Shown here in pieces: positions 34,059 through 46,202 of a stretch of 64,000 nt of DNA. Source of the stretch: an uncultured Treponema sp. (GTDB taxonomy: Bacteria; Spirochaetota; Spirochaetia; Treponematales; Treponemataceae); NCBI GenBank assembly GCA_947166355.1, contig CAMVDX010000003.1, forward strand, positions 1 to 64,000, in the 5' to 3' direction. The stretch's first letter is position 1. The number at the start of each line of letters is the position of its first letter. The notes below the pieces were generated by a model. The model ran no database searches. It was not told the origin of the DNA and saw only the letters and a list, made by a program, of their open reading frames with translations. The translations under genes were made by a program, and so were the position numbers.

Positions 34059-35264
34059 TTATTTTGTTACTACTGCGTTAATTTTTCCTTCCGCAGGTGT
34101 TATAATCAATTTTGTACCCTCAGTAACTTGTTTATCACTTCGAATAATTTTTCCATTTTCATCACAAACCATAGAATATCCCCGGTCGAAGATTGTCTGT
34201 GGACTTGCATTTTCCAAAACCGTGCGGCTTTGTGCTATGCGAACGCGAAGGTCGCGGATTTTTTCCTGTAAGTTTTGAGGAAGCGCTTCGCGGGCAGCGG
34301 CAAAACGGTTTAACAGCGGCTGCTGGATATTTCTGAAGCGCACTTCAAGGCTTTCAGGATTAAAGGCTTTTACCATAAGTCTGGTGTTTTTGATTCTGGC
34401 AGAAATTGTGTCGTAAAAGCCTGTTTTATAGGCTGCGAGGTTTTGTTTGAGGTCGGCCAGCAGCGGTACGGCCATTTCTGCGGCGGCGGATGGGGTTGGA
34501 GCGCGGCGGTCTGCCGAATAATCGCACAATGCCCAGTCAATTTCGTGTCCTACTGCGCTGATTGTAGGAATACGGGACTCAGCTACGGCGCGCACTACGC
34601 TTTCTTCGCTGAAAGGAAGCAAATCTTCAAGAGAACCACCGCCTCGGCCAACAATCAGGACATCGCAAAGTTCATAAAAGTTTGCAATTTCAATCATCTT
34701 GCAGATTGTCTGAGCAGCACCTTCGCCTTGAACAATAGCCGGTAGTACCAGAATGTTTACACCGGGATTGCGGCGTTTTGTAACATTCAATATATCACGT
34801 ATGGCAGCACCTGTCGGGCTTGTAACAACTCCAATTGTGCGGGGAAAGAGCGGCAGGGGCTTTTTGCGGTTTTCATCAAAAAGACCTTCGGCTGCAAGCT
34901 TTCTTTTGCGTTCTTCGAGCATCTGAAGAATATTGCCGGCTCCCGCAATTTCCATAGTATTTACTATTATCTGGTAATTTCCCTGAGGTGCATAAACCGA
35001 AATGCTTCCCCTGCAGCGAACTTTGTCTCCATCTTTCGGGCGGAAGTTCAACTTCATTGCGGCACCGCGGAATATTACTGCTTTTATCTGAGCATTATTA
35101 TCTTTAAGGGTAAAATAGATGTGGCCTGCGGCACTAGGTCTCCAGTTAGAAATTTCTCCTTCGATAGTAATAGTGCGGAAGGAGGTTTCTAAAATTTCTT
35201 TGATTAAATCTGTAATCTGCGAAACGCTGAAAACAATGTCCTGTGGTAATTCCGGTGCGTTCAT
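34059..35264 (-). CDS. xseA: Exodeoxyribonuclease VII large subunit
   Basis: Catalytic subunit of ExoVII, which degrades single-stranded DNA from both ends. 401 residues: OB-fold (~5-100, SNWRPSAAGHIYFTLKD), catalytic domain with GVVTSPTGAAIRD, VGRGGGSLEDL and AVGHEIDWALCDYSADRRAPTPSAAAE (two blocks), and a short C-terminal coiled coil. Followed by xseB and mutL on the same strand, which forms a DNA repair cluster. Confidence 0.96.
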   Translation of the reverse strand: MNAPELPQDIVFSVSQITDLIKEILETSFRTITIEGEISNWRPSAAGHIYFTLKDNNAQIKAVIFRGAAMKLNFRPKDGDKVRCRGSISVYAPQGNYQIIVNTMEIAGAGNILQMLEERKRKLAAEGLFDENRKKPLPLFPRTIGVVTSPTGAAIRDILNVTKRRNPGVNILVLPAIVQGEGAAQTICKMIEIANFYELCDVLIVGRGGGSLEDLLPFSEESVVRAVAESRIPTISAVGHEIDWALCDYSADRRAPTPSAAAEMAVPLLADLKQNLAAYKTGFYDTISARIKNTRLMVKAFNPESLEVRFRNIQQPLLNRFAAAREALPQNLQEKIRDLRVRIAQSRTVLENASPQTIFDRGYSMVCDENGKIIRSDKQVTEGTKLIITPAEGKINAVVTK

Positions 35265-35434: not shown

Positions 35435-36961
35435 ATGAAAACCATAGTAATTTTTTATTCCGAAGACTCAAAATATGCCGCAGAAAAGGCTTTTAAGGGT
35501 AAATCAGCTGTAGAACTGACTTCTGAATGGGCTGAATCCCTCAATTTGGCCTCATATACAGTAAAATCTCCGACTTTATCAGAGCTTTTAACCGATATGA
35601 AAAAACTCTGCGAAGAAAATCAGGCAGAAACAGTTCTTTTTTCTTATAATGATCTTCCATACCTAAATAAGGAGCTTTCACAAAAAATCCTTAATTCTCA
35701 AATCGAATATAAATCAGAATATACCTTTGCAGACGGTTATCCTTATGGTTTTGCGCCGGAAGCCTTAAATGCAGGCACAATCGGAATACTTGCCGAGCTC
35801 TCAAAAACAACTCAGAAACCCCTCGGCGATTCACCGGTTTCCCGCGACGCTATTTATAATCTCATTAAAACAGACATTAATTCCTTTGATGTAGAAACGA
35901 TTATTGCCGAATCGGACTGGCGTCTTTTGCGTTTAGCGTTTCATTGCGGAAAAAAAGATAACTTTATGCAGTGCAAGGCCTTGTTTGAAGAGGCTTCCGG
36001 CGATGCAAATGCTTTAGCTGATGTAGAACAGCTTTCAGAGCTGGCATCAAAAAATCTAGCCTGCTTAAAAACTGTTCCGGGCTTTTATAATATTCAGATT
36101 TCAGACAAAGTGAACTTTGAATCAATTTATCTGCCAGAACTGGAATATTCAAAAAGTACAATGCCATATGAAAAGTGCGCAGAACTTATAGAAAAAATTG
36201 CCGCTTTCAGTGAAAAGGCTGTAATCAGTCTTTCAGCCTTTGGAGAGCCTCTTTTGAATGCTGATTTTCTGAAAATTGTTGAAAAAATTCTTTCTTATAA
36301 AGGCCTTTCAGTATTTTTTGAAACTGACGGTCTTATGGTAACACAGGATTTTGCAGAAAAAATGGCCGTGCTTGAAAAATCAGCAAGCCCACGCACAAAC
36401 GGCTGGCAGAAAATCATGATAGCTGTAATTCTGGATGCTGCAAGCGAACAGACTTATCAGAAAATTCATAAAAACAGCCCGTCTAAGGCTTTTCAGACAG
36501 CAGTAAATGCGGCAGCACTTTTGCAGACTGCTATACCCGGCTCTGTTTACCCGCAGTTTGTGCGCATGAACGAAAATGAATCAGAGCTAGAAGCCTTTTA
36601 CCGTTACTGGAATGAAAAATCAAATCCATCTGGTGGAAACCTTATAATCCAGAAATACGATGATTTTGCAGGACTGCTTCCTCCTTGTAAGCCGGCTGAT
36701 CTTTCACCATTAGAACGCGATCCTTGCTGGCATCTTCGCCGTGACATGACAATTCTATTTAACGGCGATGTTCCTGCATGTCATTCCTGCTGCAAAGATC
36801 ATATTATGGGAAATGCTTTTACACAGAGTCTCGAAGAAATCTGGCATAAGTCAGATGTGCTTCTTGAAAATCATATAAATAAAAACTATTGCTGCAACGG
36901 AAAAACCGTAGAATGTGCAAATTGTGAGAAATGCGATGAATGGTATACCTTTAACTTTTAG
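35435..36961 (+). CDS. Spiro-SPASM protein
   Basis: 508 residues. The C-terminus is a SPASM-type auxiliary iron-sulfur domain with many Cys (ACHSCCKDH, NYCCNGKTVECANCEKC), and residues ~200-390 resemble the radical SAM barrel. The CxxxCxxC cluster motif of radical SAM enzymes is absent at the expected place, which is the hallmark of the spirochaete spiro-SPASM family. Function is unknown. ATG at 35417 is an alternative start; neither has a strong ribosome site. It overlaps the next gene by 26 bases, first in a four-gene sugar-related operon. Confidence 0.82.
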   Translation: MKTIVIFYSEDSKYAAEKAFKGKSAVELTSEWAESLNLASYTVKSPTLSELLTDMKKLCEENQAETVLFSYNDLPYLNKELSQKILNSQIEYKSEYTFADGYPYGFAPEALNAGTIGILAELSKTTQKPLGDSPVSRDAIYNLIKTDINSFDVETIIAESDWRLLRLAFHCGKKDNFMQCKALFEEASGDANALADVEQLSELASKNLACLKTVPGFYNIQISDKVNFESIYLPELEYSKSTMPYEKCAELIEKIAAFSEKAVISLSAFGEPLLNADFLKIVEKILSYKGLSVFFETDGLMVTQDFAEKMAVLEKSASPRTNGWQKIMIAVILDAASEQTYQKIHKNSPSKAFQTAVNAAALLQTAIPGSVYPQFVRMNENESELEAFYRYWNEKSNPSGGNLIIQKYDDFAGLLPPCKPADLSPLERDPCWHLRRDMTILFNGDVPACHSCCKDHIMGNAFTQSLEEIWHKSDVLLENHINKNYCCNGKTVECANCEKCDEWYTFNF

Positions 36962-37901
36962 TGAACATCAGATAAACAGAACAGTTCTGGGAGGACGGGT
37001 AAATCAGAATCCGTCAGCCCTTAATATATCTGTAATACTTCTCAATAGTAGTGGAAGCCATTTTAAGCTTCACGTTTTTGAAAATTTATTGCAGTGTAAT
37101 TTTCAGTCAATTATTTCAATTGAACATGATTCAAGTAATTTTACAGACGATGTTTCAAAAAAATATCCGATGATAAAGTTTATAATTCCTCAGGAAAAAA
37201 CAACTGATGGAGAACTTATAAATCTTGCAATGGGAGAAATTCAGTCTGATTATGTTTTAGTACTTCGTGACAGCTTAAATATTCCTTCCGGTTTTTTACA
37301 GCCTCATCTTGCAGAAAGAATTACAGAAGGTTCTCCATACTGTATAGTTCCACGACTTATGGATAAAAACAACATAGCATTGCCTTGTGCTTTTTCTCCA
37401 GGAGCAGAGTATTCTCATTTTGTAGTAGATTCTTCTTCTGAAATCACAAATGGCAAGAAAACACTTTTTCCTTTTGATTTTATTGCACTTTATAATAGAA
37501 AAAAATTTATAGAGCTCGGTGGTTTTGACTGGACAATCACTTCTCCTTACTGGCAGAATCTGGATCTTTCACTGCGTTCCTGGTTATGGGGAGAAAGAAT
37601 AACACTGACTTCCCTGATTCAGTTTTCATATATTGATGAAGTGCCTGTTAATGATACTACCTATAATCTTGATTATTTAAGATATTATCTAAAGAATGAG
37701 CTTCCAAAAATCAAAATGGAACAGGGCTATATAAAAAGAACTGCTTTTCCGGGCTTTATGTTTCGCTCTTCATGTGGATTTATGGAAGCCCGCCGTCAGT
37801 TTAATGCTGCAAAAATCTGGGTAGAAAACAATAAATTCCGTTTCAAAATGGATTTACAGACTTTTGTTCAAAACTGGAGTCGTGATTATGAAGACAAATA
37901 G
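36936..37901 (+). CDS. Glycosyltransferase-family-2-like protein
   Basis: 321 residues. The N-terminal third resembles a GT-A fold (ISVILLNSSGSH, QSIISIEHDSS, LINLAMGEIQSDYVLVLRDSL). A second block FDFIALYNRKKFIELGGFDWTI matches the acceptor region of GT2 enzymes. The metal-binding DxD appears as LRDS, so activity is uncertain. The ATG lies inside the spiro-SPASM gene, and the end overlaps the next gene by 14 bases. It likely acts in the same surface sugar pathway. Confidence 0.65.
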   Translation: MNGIPLTFSEHQINRTVLGGRVNQNPSALNISVILLNSSGSHFKLHVFENLLQCNFQSIISIEHDSSNFTDDVSKKYPMIKFIIPQEKTTDGELINLAMGEIQSDYVLVLRDSLNIPSGFLQPHLAERITEGSPYCIVPRLMDKNNIALPCAFSPGAEYSHFVVDSSSEITNGKKTLFPFDFIALYNRKKFIELGGFDWTITSPYWQNLDLSLRSWLWGERITLTSLIQFSYIDEVPVNDTTYNLDYLRYYLKNELPKIKMEQGYIKRTAFPGFMFRSSCGFMEARRQFNAAKIWVENNKFRFKMDLQTFVQNWSRDYEDK

Positions 37902-40347
37902 AACCGTTATTGTACAGTGCAGATTATCTTCTACAAGATTACCTGGTAAAGCCTTAAAAGACCTTGGCGGTAACAGTGTACTTGCCAGAGTTCTTTCTGC
38001 AATGAAGAATGTAAAGGCAGATTATTATTATGTTGCAACTGATGAAGACTCTTATGAACAGCTTCTGCCTGTTTGCCGTGAGAATGGCTTTGAATGTTTT
38101 GCAGGACCTTTAGATGATGTTCTTTTACGTTTTACAATGCTGCTTGAAAAACTCAAGACAAAAACAGTAATCCGTGCTACAGCTGATAATCCATTTTTGT
38201 TTTATGAAGCAGCAGAAGAAAGCGCAGTTTTGTTTGAAGAAAAAAATAAAGGCAAGGGAAGCTGTGATTATCTGACTTTTTCAGGTCTTCCACATGGAAG
38301 CGGGGTAGAAGTCTTTTCTGCAGAATCTCTTATAAAGGCCGCAAAAGAAACTTCAGATCCTTATGATCATGAACATGTCGGACCTGCTCTTTATAATCAT
38401 AAAGAAAAATATAAATGTGAGTTTGTGCCGTCTCCACGCCGTTATGATTTTCCTGAACTGCGTACTACAATCGATACGTATTCAGATTATCTGCGTGCTG
38501 TTTCTATAATGACATATCTGCAAAAAAAAGGATATGAAGCTCCTTTTTCTACAGAACAAATTGTGGAAGCCTGCCGTTCGAACAGTGTGAAATTTCCGGT
38601 AGTTCTTGTACCATCAGTTGTAAAAGGTCATGGAACCGGCCACTTGAGACGCTGTCTTTCAGCTGCAAAACAGGGTGGATTTTTTGTATATATTCCGGAT
38701 GACAATACTCTTACAGAAACAGAAGCAATTATTTCAGAATACATTGCTGCTGGTCTTTCAAAAAATCAGATTATAAATTCTATTCCAGATGAATCTTATC
38801 TTCCTGCAATTATAACAGACACTTTTGAGCTTACAGAAAATCAGCTTAAGGAGCTTTCTAAAAACCGAAGTCTCATTTCAATAGATGAAGGCTCACGTTT
38901 TACAGATTACTGTGACTATCTTTTAGACATAATTCCTTCATATCAATGTGAACGACCGGCAAATATAAATGATTCTGGTTTTATAACAATGCCGGAAAAT
39001 ATTCGCGAAGCTTCTTCTGCTGAAAGAAAGGTAGAAAATGTACTGATTTGTCTTGGTGGTGAAGATCCTGCAAATCTTACAGTTCCGGCTGCAAAAGCAT
39101 TTATGCGGAAATTTCCACAGGCAAAGATTACTGCTATCGTTTCAAATGAACAAAGCCCATATGTTGATTATGCAGGCGGCCCGAATGTTGAGTTTACAAA
39201 GCCGATACCAGAGCTGCGTGAAAAGCTTTATGAATTTGATATTGTCGTAACTCATTATGGCCTCACAGCATTTGAAGCAGTTTATGCTGGTTGCGGTGTA
39301 ATTCTTCTTCCTACAACAAAGCTCCATAAAAAGCTTGCAGAAAAATATAACTTTGCTTATGTTGGCGAAAAAGAAATTTCTGTTTCTGCGCTTCAGACGG
39401 CTCTTGATTCAAAAAATCTGTATCCTGAAAAAATCCTTAACGGGGAGAAAAAAGACCTCGGAGAATTTCTTCGTTATCTTGCAAACGGCAAGAGACTATG
39501 CTGCCCTGTATGTGGTAAATTTTCCGAAACGCCAGATGAAGTTATTTCACGAAATGAAACCAGAACCTACCGGCGCTGTTCAAAGTGCGGAATGGTTTAT
39601 ATGGCCTTTACAACTCTCGAAGATAAAAAATATCAGAAATCATATTTTTTTGAAGATTATAAAAAACAATATGGAAAGACCTATGAAGAAGATTTTGATT
39701 CGATAAAGGCTCAGGGAATTCGCAGAATCAATATAATCAAAAATCTTATAGGTTCTGCAGGAGAGACCTTACTTGATATAGGTTGTGCTTACGGTCCATT
39801 TCTTGCAGCAGCGGCAGATAGCGGAATAAATCCTTTTGGTACGGATATAGCAGAGGATGCAGTTTCTTATGTTCAGCAGAAATTAAAATATCCTGCTGTT
39901 TGTTCTGAATTCCCAGAAATTGATACTGCTGAAGAGTTTGGAATTGCACAGTTTGATGTCGTTACCATGTGGTATGTAATAGAGCATTTTAAGGATTTAG
40001 GAAGTGTTTTGAGAAAGGTTTCATCTCTTATAAAAAAAGGAGGAATCTTTGCTTTTTCAACTCCGAGCGGTGAAGGTATATCAGCAGTAAGTGATAAAGA
40101 TCATTTTTATCAGATTAGTCCTACCGATCATTATACAATCTGGGAACCGGGAAGGGCAGACTCAATTCTGCATCAGTTTGGTTTTAAGGTAGAACGTATT
40201 GTTTCTACAGGTCATCATCCTGAAAGATTCCCAAGTATAAAAAAATGCGGTGCTAAACCCGGAAGTATAAAATGGAAAATGACTGATATGTTTAGCCGTG
40301 CAAAAAAACTGGGCGATACAGTAGAAATTTACTGCAAGAAAATATAA
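37888..40347 (+). CDS. Three-domain SpsF-SpsG-methyltransferase fusion
   Basis: 819 residues with three modules. Residues 1-~235: SpsF/NeuA-like cytidylyltransferase (VQCRLSSTRLPGKAL, RATADNPF). Residues ~240-525: PseG/SpsG-like nucleotide-sugar hydrolase or glycosyltransferase-B fold (KGHGTGHLRRC, VLICLGGEDPANLT, THYGLTAFEAVYAG). Residues ~537-819: zinc-ribbon (CPVC about 539, RCSKC about 563) leading a SAM methyltransferase (LLDIGCAYGPF about 628). The set resembles CMP-sugar pathways for flagellin or surface decoration, such as pseudaminic or legionaminic acid, but no synthase is in the window. GGAG precedes the ATG; overlaps its upstream neighbour. Confidence 0.85.
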   Translation: MKTNRTVIVQCRLSSTRLPGKALKDLGGNSVLARVLSAMKNVKADYYYVATDEDSYEQLLPVCRENGFECFAGPLDDVLLRFTMLLEKLKTKTVIRATADNPFLFYEAAEESAVLFEEKNKGKGSCDYLTFSGLPHGSGVEVFSAESLIKAAKETSDPYDHEHVGPALYNHKEKYKCEFVPSPRRYDFPELRTTIDTYSDYLRAVSIMTYLQKKGYEAPFSTEQIVEACRSNSVKFPVVLVPSVVKGHGTGHLRRCLSAAKQGGFFVYIPDDNTLTETEAIISEYIAAGLSKNQIINSIPDESYLPAIITDTFELTENQLKELSKNRSLISIDEGSRFTDYCDYLLDIIPSYQCERPANINDSGFITMPENIREASSAERKVENVLICLGGEDPANLTVPAAKAFMRKFPQAKITAIVSNEQSPYVDYAGGPNVEFTKPIPELREKLYEFDIVVTHYGLTAFEAVYAGCGVILLPTTKLHKKLAEKYNFAYVGEKEISVSALQTALDSKNLYPEKILNGEKKDLGEFLRYLANGKRLCCPVCGKFSETPDEVISRNETRTYRRCSKCGMVYMAFTTLEDKKYQKSYFFEDYKKQYGKTYEEDFDSIKAQGIRRINIIKNLIGSAGETLLDIGCAYGPFLAAAADSGINPFGTDIAEDAVSYVQQKLKYPAVCSEFPEIDTAEEFGIAQFDVVTMWYVIEHFKDLGSVLRKVSSLIKKGGIFAFSTPSGEGISAVSDKDHFYQISPTDHYTIWEPGRADSILHQFGFKVERIVSTGHHPERFPSIKKCGAKPGSIKWKMTDMFSRAKKLGDTVEIYCKKI

Positions 40348-40423
40348 TTTATTGACATTGTCAGATTTGAGCCGGCATTGTGTCATGTTCGGACTTGACT
40401 CGACAATCTATAGAGGTGGGAAA

Positions 40424-42157
40424 ATGAATATTTTAGTTCTTGGAGCAGGTCTTATGCAAAAGCCTGCAATTCTAAGTGCAAAGGAAGCAGGCTTTACCGT
40501 TCATGTAATTGATGCAGATTCAAAGGCTGTTGCAATTCCTTATGCAGATACCTTCAGACAAATTGATTTAAAAGATAAAGAAGGAATCCTGAATTATGCA
40601 AAAGAACTTAAGAATAGTGAAGGCGGGCTTTCTGCAGTTTTTACGGCTGGAACTGATTTTTCTGCCAGCGTAAGTTATGTATGCGAAGCTTTAGGATTAC
40701 CAGCACATTCTTATGAGGCAGCTATAAATGCAAGCGTAAAGACAACGATGCGGCAATGTTTTGAAACTGCCGGAGTTCCATCGCCTGCCTTTGTCCGGGT
40801 AGGCCGGGAAGACCTGAAACTTTGCGAGCCGCAATCTCCTTCTCGTCATTGCGAACCACAATCCCCATCTCGTCATTGCGAGCCGCAATCCCCATCTCGT
40901 CATTGCGAGCCGCAGGCGAAGCAATCAATACTAAATAACATTCTCAATAAAATCTCTCTTCCTCTCGTTGTAAAACCTGTAGACAATATGGGGGCGCGTG
41001 GTTGTCGTATGGTTCGTACAGAAGAGGAACTTTTACCTGCTGTAAAAGCAGCTGTTGCATGCAGCCGTACCGGTTATGCAATCATAGAAGAATATATGGA
41101 AGGTCCAGAGTTCTCAATTGATGCATTGGTATATAACGGCACATTTACAGTTACAGGCTTTGCAATCCGCCATATAAAATATCCTCCATATTTTATTGAA
41201 GTTGGGCATACAATGCCGGCAGAACTAGACAAAAAAACACATGATGAACTTATTTCTGTTTTTGCTCTTGGTGCAAAGGCCCTTGGTCTTAGTTGCGGAG
41301 CCGCAAAAGCAGATATCAAATATACAAAAGACGGGCCTATGATTGGCGAAATTGCAGGACGTCTTTCTGGCGGCTATATGTCCGGCTGGACCTATCCGTA
41401 TGCTTCAGATTTAAATCTTACCAAACAGGGAATTCTCATAGCAGCAGGTTGCGAGCCGAAAGATTTAATTGAAAAACGAAAGCCTGTTGTTTACACTCCA
41501 AGTGAGCTTTGTAAAAATGCTGAGCAGCCTTATGAACTCTTTGAAGTTCCATGTGTGCGAACTTCAGCAGAGCGTGCCTGGATAAGCATTCCTGGAACCG
41601 TAAAATATATAGAAAATATTAAGGATTATTCTGACAGGGCTGTTTTTGACATATTGCCGCGTGCTACCGTAAGTATTGGTAGTGAAGTAGATTTTCCACG
41701 CAATAATGTTGAAAAGTGCGGTAATATAATTGCTGTAAGTCATAGTCGCGAAAGTGCAATTGAAGTTGCACAGGATGCCGTTTCAGATATTTTTATTACA
41801 CTTGAACCCAAAAACGCTAAAACAGAAAATTTTCTTATGCGAACAGAACTTGATGATGAAAAAGATTTTCCGCCGTCAGCATTTGGAAGTCTTTCGAAAG
41901 AACAGGCAGAAACTATTACAGGTGTAATTCCACAGAATCAAAAAGTTGAAGAAGTTATTCCAGAAGTCTTGCAAACTGCCGAATATATAAACATAACCGA
42001 CTGGAATTACAACACAATCAAAGCTACGGCACAAAAATTTGATATTTTACGCCCAAAGCATCCTGCATTAGATGCCGCACGATTTTGGAATGCCGTATTG
42101 AGAGGTGGAATTCAAGCCGCAGTTTATGTTTCTGATACTGCTGAAATAACCTCATAA
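40424..42157 (+). CDS. ATP-grasp ligase-like protein with repeat insertion
   Basis: 577 residues. N-terminal Rossmann-like pre-ATP-grasp domain (MNILVLGAGLMQKPAIL), then an ATP-grasp domain (LPLVVKPVDNMGARG, IEEYMEGPEFSIDALVYNG, GEIAGRLSGG), then a C-terminal region (~380-577) that I do not recognise. Such enzymes join a carboxylate to an amine or other nucleophile with ATP; substrate unknown. AGGTGGG precedes the ATG. Residues ~134-168 are an in-frame dispersed repeat insertion (see separate entry) in the linker between the two domains, probably tolerated. Last gene of the sugar-type operon. Confidence 0.82.
   Translation: MNILVLGAGLMQKPAILSAKEAGFTVHVIDADSKAVAIPYADTFRQIDLKDKEGILNYAKELKNSEGGLSAVFTAGTDFSASVSYVCEALGLPAHSYEAAINASVKTTMRQCFETAGVPSPAFVRVGREDLKLCEPQSPSRHCEPQSPSRHCEPQSPSRHCEPQAKQSILNNILNKISLPLVVKPVDNMGARGCRMVRTEEELLPAVKAAVACSRTGYAIIEEYMEGPEFSIDALVYNGTFTVTGFAIRHIKYPPYFIEVGHTMPAELDKKTHDELISVFALGAKALGLSCGAAKADIKYTKDGPMIGEIAGRLSGGYMSGWTYPYASDLNLTKQGILIAAGCEPKDLIEKRKPVVYTPSELCKNAEQPYELFEVPCVRTSAERAWISIPGTVKYIENIKDYSDRAVFDILPRATVSIGSEVDFPRNNVEKCGNIIAVSHSRESAIEVAQDAVSDIFITLEPKNAKTENFLMRTELDDEKDFPPSAFGSLSKEQAETITGVIPQNQKVEEVIPEVLQTAEYINITDWNYNTIKATAQKFDILRPKHPALDAARFWNAVLRGGIQAAVYVSDTAEITS
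40823..40927 (+). repeat. In-frame tandem 27-bp repeat of the GTCATTGCGAG family
   Basis: Three full 27-bp units (40823-40849, 40850-40876, 40877-40903) and a partial fourth encode C-E-P-Q-S-P-S-R-H per unit, ending QAKQSI. The DNA unit, containing cgtcattgcgagccgcaatc, matches the intergenic repeats of this window. It adds about 35 residues without breaking the frame. Confidence 0.9.
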
Positions 42158-42174: not shown

Positions 42175-43206
42175 ATGAAGCTGAAAAGATTTGCAATATT
42201 AGTAAGTACAATTTTTCTCTATGCAGCATTGTTTGCCTCAAATGATATTGCACTTATGGATAAGTGTAAAAATTCAGGAATGACAATCTATTGGGACAGC
42301 CTTTCAGAAACAGGCATGCTGGAAAAAAACGGGCATCAGATTTCGTTCCGTAATGGAGAAGGAATGGTGCTGCTTGACAGCATCCGCATGATGATAACTG
42401 ATGCGCCGGAGCTCCGTGATAATCAGCTTTATGTGTCTCAGAAATTTTTAGATGACAGTGAAGAGTTTTTTAATCAGAAATCTGAACTGCCGTTTAAAGT
42501 CGGTGCAATCCTTATTGATGCAGGCCACGGCGGAAAAGATCCTGGTGCTCTAAAGACTTATAAAATAAACGGAAAGAATGTAACAATTCAGGAAAAAGAC
42601 ATTACGCTCAAAGTTTCAAAAATGCTCGCTGAACGCTTAAAAGCCGCATATCCTGGAAAGCAGATAATTCTAACTCGTGATAAAGATGTATTCCTTACTC
42701 TTGGTGAACGAACAGACATCGCCAACAGCGTTAAGGTAGGTGAAAACGAAGCGGTGCTTTTCATCTCAGTGCATGTCAATTCGTCATTAAATAAAACTTC
42801 ATCCGGTTATGAAGTCTGGTATCTTTCACCGGGCTATAGACGTAACGTGCTGGATAAATCAGCTGTAGATGGAGATGAAAATCTCTTTCCGATTTTAAAC
42901 TCAATGATGGAAGAAGAATATACTACTGAAAGTATAATGATTGCAAAATTTATTATGGATGGTCTGCAGGGACAAATCGGCAAGGAATCTACAGCCAGAG
43001 GAATTAAAGCCGAAGAATGGTTTGTAGTTCGTAATTCAAACATGCCTAGCGTTTTGATAGAACTGGGCTTTGTTTCAAATGAAAAAGAAGCCCTTTTATT
43101 AAATGATGAAAGATACTTGAAAAAAGCTACCCTTGGAATATATAATGGCATTGCAGCGTTTATTACACACTTTGAACGTTCACAAGGATTTACTTCGATA
43201 AAATGA
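42175..43206 (+). CDS. N-acetylmuramoyl-L-alanine amidase (AmiC/CwlD type)
   Basis: Zinc amidase that cuts the lactyl bond between glycan and peptide in peptidoglycan. 343 residues: signal peptide (about 1-22), a small N-terminal domain, then an Amidase_3 domain (~115-335) with IDAGHGGKDPGA (zinc His), FISVHVNSS (second His) and VLIELGFVSNEKEA (catalytic Glu). It is exported and may act in cell separation. Its stop overlaps the next start by four bases. Confidence 0.93.
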   Translation: MKLKRFAILVSTIFLYAALFASNDIALMDKCKNSGMTIYWDSLSETGMLEKNGHQISFRNGEGMVLLDSIRMMITDAPELRDNQLYVSQKFLDDSEEFFNQKSELPFKVGAILIDAGHGGKDPGALKTYKINGKNVTIQEKDITLKVSKMLAERLKAAYPGKQIILTRDKDVFLTLGERTDIANSVKVGENEAVLFISVHVNSSLNKTSSGYEVWYLSPGYRRNVLDKSAVDGDENLFPILNSMMEEEYTTESIMIAKFIMDGLQGQIGKESTARGIKAEEWFVVRNSNMPSVLIELGFVSNEKEALLLNDERYLKKATLGIYNGIAAFITHFERSQGFTSIK

Positions 43207-43685
43207 GTTTGAATGCGGTTCAGATAAAATCAACAATCAAAAATCATATTTTTTACTCAACCATAATTCTATTAATAACTTTGATTTTTGTTTTCTCATT
43301 TATCAGTTATTTAGCAGGAAGAAAAGGTGTCAGACGTACTTTTATTTTCCCGTCAGCAGAAAGCGGAAAATATATTATTGAGTACAGAACCCTTTCTAAA
43401 AATCCGCATCAGGGAGACATTCATTTTTTTATTGATGAAATACTTCTTGGTTCAACAGTTGAACGTACAAAACTGCTTTTTACTCCGGGTACAAAATTGC
43501 TTTCGTGTTTTGAACGCGATGAAATTTTATATTTAAATCTGTCTTCTGATTTACTTTTTATGGGAGATGGAGTAATAGAAATAAAGGAAGGAATTGACCT
43601 TCTGGAGAGGAATATAGAGCTGAATTTTCCAAAAATCAATAAAACAGAAATTTTTATTGAAGGAAAATCTGCTTTTGAAAAATAA
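43203..43685 (+). CDS. GerMN-domain membrane protein
   Basis: 160 residues: one membrane helix (about 17-38), then a GerMN-like domain (RTFIFPSAESGKYIIEYR, GDIHFFIDEILLGST, LFTPGTKLLSCFERDEILYLNLS). GerMN domains bind or support peptidoglycan-related complexes; here it is coupled to an amidase by a four-base overlap, so an envelope role is likely. Exact function is unknown. Confidence 0.75.
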   Translation: MSLNAVQIKSTIKNHIFYSTIILLITLIFVFSFISYLAGRKGVRRTFIFPSAESGKYIIEYRTLSKNPHQGDIHFFIDEILLGSTVERTKLLFTPGTKLLSCFERDEILYLNLSSDLLFMGDGVIEIKEGIDLLERNIELNFPKINKTEIFIEGKSAFEK

Positions 43686-43769: not shown

Positions 43770-44852
43770 ATGAAGAAGACTTTGGGTTTAATCGCAGCTG
43801 CTATGCTGCTTGTTGGTGGAGTTGCTTTCGCTGATGAAGCAATCCTCATCGATTTTACACTTCTGGATGCTGACTGCTGTGCTGATGAAAATGGAAATCC
43901 AACACAGAATAGTCGCACAGTTATGGACTACTCTGTAAGCGCTGGTGCAACTTTCACACAAGATCAGAAAGATCTTATGAAAACTTCATTGGCACTTCCA
44001 GAATGGGAAGTTAAGCTGAACTCATCTGCAAAGACAGTTGCAAGCTTGGCTGACTCTACAGTTGTTGCCGCTCCTGTAAAAGGTGAAGCAGATGTTCCAT
44101 TTGCTGGCAAGAATGTAATGGGTGTTCGCATCGTATTCCCTCAGTGGAACTCAAACGCAAATGCCCGCATCGATCCTCCGTTCGATATTCCTGCTTATGA
44201 GCCACTTTCTTCTGCTGATGAAAATGGTAACCGCCAGGAACCAACAGACGAAGAAAAAGCAAGCGGAAAAACACTTTTCGAAGAAGGATATGGTGTTGTA
44301 AAGAACGTAGGAACAGTAAAATCTATTGCTGTAACAACAATGGGTATGAACTATCCTCACGGACTTTATGTTCTTATGGCTGATAATGACGGTGTAGAAC
44401 GCCGCTACTTTATGGGTTACCTTGGTTTCGACGGATGGAAAGAACTCCGCTGGAACAACCCACAGTATATTTCTGAAATCCGTAACCGCGAAATCCGCGT
44501 TTACCCAATCTATCCTCGCGGACTTCCATTTGTAAAGTTCACAGGTTTCCAGATTACTCGTGACGCAGCTCACATTGGTGGAGATTTCATTGGTTACTTC
44601 AAAGATGTAAAGGTTATTTACGACAAGGCTCTCCTTACAAGCGACCGCGACATTGCTGATGAAGACCTCTGGGGAATCATTGGTAAGAAAGAAAAGGCTC
44701 GCCAGAATGCTGAGATGCAGAAGTTCGGAAATAAACAGGTTAACCGTTATCTTGAAAGAGCTAAGCTCGCATCTGAAGATGAATTCACTTCTTCTTTGAA
44801 TGCTGAAGGTGGCTCAAATGCACAGAGTAACGGCGGACAGGCTGCTAACTAA
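43770..44852 (+). CDS. flaA: Periplasmic flagellar filament outer layer protein FlaA
   Basis: 360 residues with a clear signal peptide (1-21, ending GGVAFA). The mature sequence has the spirochaete FlaA pattern: ILIDFTLLDAD, NVMGVRIVFPQWNSNANARIDPPFDIP (two blocks), GVVKNVGTVKSIAVTTMGMNYPHGLYVLMADNDG (consecutive) and RGLPFVKFTGFQI. FlaA is exported by Sec and sheathes the FlaB core of the periplasmic flagellum. Codon use is highly biased and the ribosome site strong, as expected for an abundant protein. It has its own promoter and terminator. Confidence 0.95.
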   Translation: MKKTLGLIAAAMLLVGGVAFADEAILIDFTLLDADCCADENGNPTQNSRTVMDYSVSAGATFTQDQKDLMKTSLALPEWEVKLNSSAKTVASLADSTVVAAPVKGEADVPFAGKNVMGVRIVFPQWNSNANARIDPPFDIPAYEPLSSADENGNRQEPTDEEKASGKTLFEEGYGVVKNVGTVKSIAVTTMGMNYPHGLYVLMADNDGVERRYFMGYLGFDGWKELRWNNPQYISEIRNREIRVYPIYPRGLPFVKFTGFQITRDAAHIGGDFIGYFKDVKVIYDKALLTSDRDIADEDLWGIIGKKEKARQNAEMQKFGNKQVNRYLERAKLASEDEFTSSLNAEGGSNAQSNGGQAAN

Positions 44853-44954: not shown

Positions 44955-46202
44955 ATGGAAACTGCCAATTTAATTTCAAAGCGTCAGATTCGAGAAATTT
45001 ACGAATCTTATACAGATTATTTTTATGACATCATGGCAAAGGTTGTGGAGCGTCTTCAGCAGAATATCAAACTTTCTGCGCAGCCAACTTATAAAAGCCG
45101 TGTAAAAAGTTTTGAAAGTTATTACAAAAAGATTTTGCGATTAAAGCCTCAGCAGCTGGAAGAAAATAAATCCCTGATTTATCTCACAGATATGATGGGA
45201 ATTCGTATGATCTGTGCTTTTCTTGAAGATATAAATCTTGGTGTAGAACAGATAAAAAAGCTTTTTGAAATCAAAGAAGTAGAAGTAAAAGGGGCTGAAA
45301 AGAAGTTTTCTGAATTCGGTTATGAATCTGTTCATGTGCTTGTTAAAATTCCGGATGAGTTTAAACCGGAGCTTACTGGAAAATACGAAGGACTGGCACC
45401 AATTTCAGATGAAATTGTCTGCGAAATCCAGATTCGCACAATTCTTCAGGATGCCTGGGCAGAAGTAGAACATGAATTAATTTATAAAATCGACTTTAAT
45501 CCTTTTGATAAGCCTCTACGACGTAAGCTTGCCTCAATTAATGCCTCTCTGACCCTTGCAGATATTACTTTCCAGGAAATCCGTGATTATCAGAATAAGC
45601 TTCAGCGTGAACTGGATGAACGTCGCCGTTCTTTCTATTCGCTTGCAGATGGATTTTTGAATGATAAAACTGAAAAACCTGAAGAAGATATTAATCGTGT
45701 AAATCCATTTGTTCAGGGAACTATTGATGATTTAATTCTTAAAGCAATTGAAGCTCATAACGAAGGTCATCTTTCAGAAGCTGTTGATATTTATACACGT
45801 ATTCTTGATGCAGTTGCTGATGGTGACAAAAATGTACTTGCTGTAATACATAAACACAGAGGTATGGCATTCTTTGCTATGAATAATCTTGAAGCTGCTC
45901 TTGATGATTTTCAGAAAAGTATTGATGCTGATCCAAAGGCGTTCCGTTCTTATTATTACAAGGGAATTGTTTATTCAATTCTTAAAAAATATAAAGAAGC
46001 AATTGAATGTTATTCTAAATCTCTGGAAATCAATGAATTTCAGGCTCATGCAAACTTCCGTCGTTCTATGGCATACTATGAGCTGGGTGAATATGAGCAG
46101 GCAATGAATGATCTTGATGTTGCACTAAAACTCGGAATGAATCCGGACGAGTGTAAGGGACTTCAGGAAAAGCTTGTAAAGAAATTCGGCATGAATATGT
46201 AA
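44955..46202 (+). CDS. RelA/SpoT-domain (p)ppGpp synthetase-like protein with TPRs
   Basis: 415 residues. Residues ~20-235 are a RelA/SpoT synthetase domain (YKSRVKSFESYYKKI, LTDMMGIRMICAFLEDI, FGYESVHVLVKI, EIQIRTILQDAWAEVEHELIYK). Residues ~255-400 contain three to four TPRs. There is no HD hydrolase, TGS or ACT domain, so it differs from the long Rel/SpoT enzymes and resembles small alarmone synthetases with a protein-binding tail. Activity would need testing. Only a weak ribosome site is visible. Confidence 0.87.
   Translation: METANLISKRQIREIYESYTDYFYDIMAKVVERLQQNIKLSAQPTYKSRVKSFESYYKKILRLKPQQLEENKSLIYLTDMMGIRMICAFLEDINLGVEQIKKLFEIKEVEVKGAEKKFSEFGYESVHVLVKIPDEFKPELTGKYEGLAPISDEIVCEIQIRTILQDAWAEVEHELIYKIDFNPFDKPLRRKLASINASLTLADITFQEIRDYQNKLQRELDERRRSFYSLADGFLNDKTEKPEEDINRVNPFVQGTIDDLILKAIEAHNEGHLSEAVDIYTRILDAVADGDKNVLAVIHKHRGMAFFAMNNLEAALDDFQKSIDADPKAFRSYYYKGIVYSILKKYKEAIECYSKSLEINEFQAHANFRRSMAYYELGEYEQAMNDLDVALKLGMNPDECKGLQEKLVKKFGMNM

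Follow-up and report, generated by a model that had tools for sequence, protein, structure and literature searches.

A conserved Treponema gene cluster beside flaA probably serves nonulosonic acid glycosylation of flagellin and encodes a spiro-SPASM protein that lacks its SAM-cluster motif

We analysed a 64,000-nucleotide stretch of DNA (the window) that forms part of contig C3 in a 3.25-Mb Treponema genome, whose nearest named relative in our collection is Treponema bryantii NK4A124 (85% identity between the SPASM proteins). The product of a gene cluster in this window is probably a CMP-nonulosonic acid that bears a methylated acyl amide and that would be attached to FlaB by Maf proteins encoded elsewhere in the genome. 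In addition, predicted structures reveal a new domain architecture, in which spiro-SPASM is an N-terminal cytidylyltransferase-fold domain fused to a C-terminal BtrN-like radical-SAM/Twitch domain. A literature search on spiro-SPASM, TP0562 or the cluster locus gave nothing useful. If correct, this assignment would give the spiro-SPASM family a pathway and would name candidate genes for activation, methylation and acylation of a motility-essential flagellar glycan, both in T. denticola and in a very small T. pallidum-like genome.

Gene layout, conserved order and distribution

The cluster lies on the forward strand and opens with the gene for spiro-SPASM (35435-36961; 508 aa; TIGR04321 at 504 bits, cut-off 250), followed by genes for a GT2-like protein (36936-37901), a three-domain SpsF-SpsG-methyltransferase fusion (37888-40347) and an ATP-grasp ligase (40424-42157). 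The first two overlap by 26 nt, with the GT2-like start MN-G/T-IP conserved, the second and third overlap by 14 nt, and a gap of 76 nt precedes the ATP-grasp gene. Three conserved neighbours follow on the same strand, encoding an N-acetylmuramoyl-L-alanine amidase (42175-43206; Amidase_3, E 8e-47), a GerMN-domain protein (43203-43685; assigned from synteny and a Germane match of 23.5 bits against a cut-off of 23.0) and the flagellar sheath protein FlaA (43770-44852; PF04620, E 1e-78). The start of the conserved cluster is marked by a divergent reverse-strand gene (34059-35264), which we take to be xseA from recognition of its sequence and at whose place relatives have XseA matches. Apart from small corrections to start sites, this is the arrangement given in the earlier note: four genes, the first three overlapping, and then amidase, GerMN-like protein and FlaA. 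A gene for a RelA/SpoT-domain protein with TPR repeats (44955-46202 in the window) lies 3' of flaA, as it does in most Treponema loci.

Distant families of the class share the order xseA (reverse), SPASM, GT2-like, SpsF, SpsG-methyltransferase, ATP-grasp, amidase, GerMN and FlaA, and this order is complete in 45 of the 49 named Treponema loci with sufficient flank. SpsF is fused within the Treponema family and a separate gene outside it, while the SpsG-methyltransferase fusion was present in nearly every neighbourhood read. Among the 94 class genomes carrying both, the SPASM and ATP-grasp genes lie no more than 8 kb apart in 84 and on different contigs of draft assemblies in 6, with clear separation on one contig in four genomes only (two of the T. 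denticola group, the T. pallidum-like genome and G278); the ATP-grasp gene has been relocated away from the cluster in the T. pallidum- and T. denticola-like genomes. Co-occurrence across spirochaetes had been proposed as a check on the cluster, and in most relatives the genes are not scattered. The gene order from SPASM through FlaA is old, and because synteny holds across the class a chance arrangement is excluded. In the T. pallidum-like locus L037 (9235-14412) three genes lie, by position only, near the old Nichols split genes merged as TP0284_285, TP0286_287 and TP0288_289.

We examined 148 genomes of the class, 117 with flagellin and 31 without. The SPASM gene (over cut-off), the SpsF-SpsG-methyltransferase gene and the ATP-grasp ortholog were each found in 98 genomes, all of them flagellin-bearing, and in none of the 31 flagellin-less genomes (Fisher p 3.9e-19 for each gene, a value that ignores phylogeny). 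All three occurred together in 93 genomes, and one or two in nine. The flagellin-bearing genomes lacking a given gene were 11 Borrelia, from which all three sugar genes are absent, and eight others that are mostly incomplete assemblies. Here family f6 is taken to be Borrelia and f12 Sphaerochaeta-like; these labels, and that of a Brachyspira-like genome, are our assumptions drawn partly from gene content.

Likewise, strong NeuB matches accompany the gene set, with two flagellin-less genomes also carrying one, and Borrelia lacks NeuB. NeuB and four Maf genes were present in the complete genomes tested. Maf numbered four copies in each of 10 flagellated non-Borrelia class genomes tested and three in the Brachyspira-like genome outside the class, with none in the one Borrelia and one Sphaerochaeta-like genome tested. 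A simple rule describes the distribution: flagellated spirochaetes of the class have the set except for Borrelia, and Borrelia and the flagella-less lineages do not. A 1.14-Mb genome retains all the genes; G056 we take to be T. pallidum Nichols. In a 2,843,201-bp genome (G165), presumably T. denticola ATCC 35405, the sole NeuB gene lies at 982.6 kb, which is the expected place of TDE0960.

The genome of the window itself encodes four Maf copies and NeuB (G000:C32:17804-18511; E 8e-59). It also encodes a PseB-like/PseC-like pair, as does the T. pallidum-like genome, with scores below the equivalog cut-offs. NeuB scores alike against PseI and NnaB, in both cases below the equivalog cut-off, and with all three proteins below these thresholds the exact sugar is uncertain. 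NeuB appears solitary in seven genomes, where no clustering with other Pse genes was recognised among neighbours judged by eye.

Spiro-SPASM and the loss of its SAM-cluster motif

The fold model of spiro-SPASM has a pLDDT of 89. Its residues 1-219 (35435-36091, forward strand) are predicted to adopt a cytidylyltransferase fold, matching the Leptospira cytidylyltransferase 6oew_B with Z 20.8 over 203 residues at 2.5 Å, and hhalign pairs them with the profile of SpsF at a probability of 74.5 (E 2.7e-5), with HMM matches down to 1e-7. The R-x2-S-x-RLPxK nucleotide loop is kept by SpsF but not by this domain. For the C-terminal part the best PDB profile match was BtrN (E 9e-16; fold Z 21.3), consistent with a Radical SAM/Twitch fold, and the segment bearing the auxiliary-cluster cysteines C431, C449, C497 and C500 (C-x17-C ... 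C-x2-C; 36725-36934, forward strand) is conserved and aligns with that of BtrN. SuiB and SkfB score about equal to BtrN in the fold comparison, which does not decide the type of substrate and keeps a peptide maturase, the usual SPASM role, among the candidates. We do not favour that role, given that by sequence the domain comes closest to a dehydrogenase acting on a sugar and that it is fused to a cytidylyltransferase fold.

At the place of the CxxxCxxC motif (36110-36133, forward strand) comparison with homologues shows that the window's protein has V226, S230 and L233, so that it lacks the catalytic radical SAM motif. The earlier description of a SPASM protein without a radical SAM cluster therefore holds for this copy but not as a family trait, as the motif is intact in 86 of 225 distinct homologues and missing in 139, with widely differing replacements. 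This is not a misalignment artefact, since a pattern search of the unaligned segment again divided the homologues 86/139, without a single discordant protein. Nor can a single ancestral event explain it: on a tree computed with the motif region left out, motif state changed 27 times, against a mean of 69 when shuffled, with at least 17 independent contrasts on supported branches. The only columns conserved at ≥90% in motif-bearing and <55% in other members were the three cysteines. The four auxiliary cysteines, which are invariant in alignment A1, are all kept in 222 of the 225 proteins (86/86 motif-bearing and 136/139 motif-less).

A more speculative reading, which we consider less likely than not, is that spiro-SPASM is a radical-SAM enzyme that has repeatedly turned non-radical, losing only its SAM-cluster cysteines while the auxiliary-cluster cysteines, the attached cytidylyltransferase-like domain and its other conserved sites stay equally constrained. 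It would then represent a Twitch class that acts on a CMP-nonulosonic acid with no metal site but the auxiliary one. When all three motif cysteines of BtrN are replaced, the protein still has its auxiliary [4Fe-4S] cluster (PMC9012708), and the natural clusterless spiro-SPASM proteins resemble that mutant. This precedent, together with the survival of the four auxiliary cysteines and other strongly conserved residues, speaks for the clusterless protein still being an enzyme, working through the auxiliary cluster or another metal bound there, and not a scaffold. Such activity is possible, if doubtful, and would be a compatible variant of the pathway set out below. Against it, we know of no Twitch enzyme that functions without its SAM cluster. 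The repeated, selective loss of these three cysteines provides a sharp test case for the role of an auxiliary Fe-S site after radical chemistry has been lost.

Candidate pathway and the place of the GT2-like protein

The fusion protein comprises an SpsF-like cytidylyltransferase (about residues 1-235), an SpsG/PseG-like domain (236-520) and a zinc-ribbon methyltransferase (535-819). Its first domain matches CTP_transf_3 (PF02348, E 6.5e-28) and carries the loop RLSSTRLPGK, with key positions invariant, which identifies it as an SpsF-type cytidylyltransferase. The second keeps the GTGHLRR motif and scores 39.6 bits against TIGR03590 (the PseG equivalog), below the cut-off of 153.55, and is best termed PseG-like only. 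The ATP-grasp protein matches ATP-grasp_4 and LAL_C2 (PF13535 and PF18603, both over cut-off) and 3vot (E 9e-37), is of the L-amino-acid ligase type and is predicted to form an amide on an amino sugar. The domain matches for CTP_transf_3, PseG-like, methyltransferase and ATP-grasp bear out the earlier reading of an SpsF-SpsG-methyltransferase fusion beside an ATP-grasp enzyme. An insert at 40822-40914 of the window adds 27-nt repeat units (SPSRHCEPQ) in frame to the ATP-grasp gene; most relatives lack it, and T. bryantii NK4A124 has a shorter form in the same position. With one mismatch allowed, the repeat core GTCATTGCGAG has 14 occurrences in the window, where 0.95 would be expected.

Our observations concern gene content and order, co-occurrence, predicted folds and the pattern of motif loss; the catalytic steps, their order, their target and what spiro-SPASM does are inferred. 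In the proposed route a pseudaminic-type nonulosonic acid would be produced by NeuB and PseB/PseC-like enzymes encoded elsewhere, with the SpsG domain stripping the nucleotide ahead of the NeuB step and the SpsF domain subsequently adding CMP. The ATP-grasp enzyme would form an amide between a carboxylic acid and a free amine on the sugar, and O-methylation of the sugar or its acyl group would fall to the methyltransferase domain. The cytidylyltransferase-like domain of spiro-SPASM may bind the sugar or CMP-sugar; proteins bearing CxxxCxxC may in addition oxidise or isomerise the sugar by radical chemistry, as in BtrN, while in the window's protein and most other Treponema copies this step would be lost, leaving a binding or scaffold subunit, or one using only the auxiliary metal site. 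The four Maf transferases would finally transfer the finished sugar to serine or threonine of FlaB before export. In Aeromonas, glycosylation with pseudaminic acid depends on Maf (PMC4065374).

The earlier note had proposed a methylated, amidated sugar attached to a surface or flagellar protein. The conserved, flagella-tied operon and its predicted enzymes fit such a sugar, which can be refined to a nonulosonic acid as the most likely product because NeuB, PseB/PseC-like, PseG-like and cytidylyltransferase proteins are all present. The T. denticola glycan is reported (Kurniyati 2017) to be a Pse-type sugar with one acetyl group and a 2-methoxy-4,5,6-trihydroxyhexanoyl amide. The component masses of this structure total 450.185 Da, and its synthesis would call for cytidylyltransferase, methyltransferase and amide-forming activities. 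The flagellar tie likewise stands, with attachment better assigned to the four Maf proteins and FlaB as the likeliest target. FlaA is not favoured, since sheath proteins are reported as unglycosylated in the title of Wyss 1998 (cited in PMC13144727), and its linkage to the cluster may reflect shared timing instead of a shared target. The title of Sterba 2008 (cited in PMC6236881) reports Borrelia flagellin as not glycosylated.

The GT2-like protein matched no family over cut-off in profile scans. Its model (pLDDT 90) is closest in predicted fold to the GT27 polypeptide GalNAc-transferases, with Z about 19 over about 260 residues compared with about 15-16 for other GT-A enzymes, although identity is about 12% and the motifs appear different: by eye, most members have xxD at the place of the GT27 DxH metal site and YWQ at that of the WGGE glutamate. 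Nearly the whole class has the gene, Borrelia among them; matches in Sphaerochaeta-like genomes are weaker. The Borrelia copy precedes the genes for amidase, GerMN and FlaA, with the sugar genes missing, and the Sphaerochaeta-like copy precedes the amidase gene only. The Borrelia loci L053 (9731-13372) and L054 (9411-13008) show this row of four without sugar genes or NeuB, and in the flagellin-less genomes of L055-L058 the gene adjoins the amidase, which hints at a link between a glycosyltransferase and peptidoglycan cleavage. In two genomes outside the class (L070, 8792-10667; L071, 9846-11567) a distant GT2-like gene lies directly beside an SpsF gene.

This persistence beside the amidase in lineages that lack the sugar genes indicates that the GT2-like protein probably has a separate role and need not belong to the pathway, and its earlier placement as belonging specifically to the sugar genes was not upheld. 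It also makes unlikely that the four genes with amidase, GerMN and FlaA work as a single unit, with the GT2-like protein attaching the sugar to FlaA/FlaB; the conserved gene order and the nearest fold, that of polypeptide O-glycosyltransferases, would suit such a unit, but the WGGE glutamate, judged by eye, is not kept and four copies of Maf, the known flagellin transferases, are present. Still less probable is that the sugar goes into a polymer of the surface or periplasm, lipopolysaccharide-like or linked to peptidoglycan, with flaA nearby incidentally, as might be read from the cell-envelope proteins (amidase and GerMN) in the same run and from the GT2-like gene staying with the amidase in flagella-less genomes, given that the sugar genes occur in 0/31 flagellin-less genomes although these have envelopes, that Maf genes show the same distribution and that the T. 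pallidum-like genome retains the sugar genes.

Comparison with known systems

The C-terminal domain of spiro-SPASM resembles BtrN, a radical-SAM/Twitch 2-deoxy-scyllo-inosamine dehydrogenase whose substrate is a sugar-like aminocyclitol, but spiro-SPASM has an additional N-terminal cytidylyltransferase-like domain, and 139/225 members lack CxxxCxxC. We know of no SPASM protein or ATP-grasp gene in the Bacillus subtilis sps system. As in the window, SpsF and SpsG act there in a nonulosonic acid pathway (legionaminic acid; PMC7439481), although its product is destined for the spore crust and not for flagella.

An experimentally tested precedent comes from the Shewanella sfmABCDE genes, among which sfmD encodes a methyltransferase and sfmE an ATP-grasp protein; the flagellin there carries a 274-Da nonulosonic acid bearing a methylatable second group (PMC3765264). 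These genes share with the spirochaete set a methyltransferase, an ATP-grasp enzyme and a PseI-like gene, but they also include a TPP enzyme and a reductase, and SPASM, GT2-like, SpsF and SpsG proteins are not reported there (PMC3765264). A further close system is the FlaB glycan pathway of T. denticola, a member of the same taxonomic family, in which the NeuB/PseI-type gene (PseI, TDE0960) is required for flagella, according to a review (PMC9862357), and the FlaBs bear an essential 450.2-Da O-glycan (PMC9481697). This evidence comes from a species other than that of the window, whose nearest named relative is T. bryantii NK4A124.
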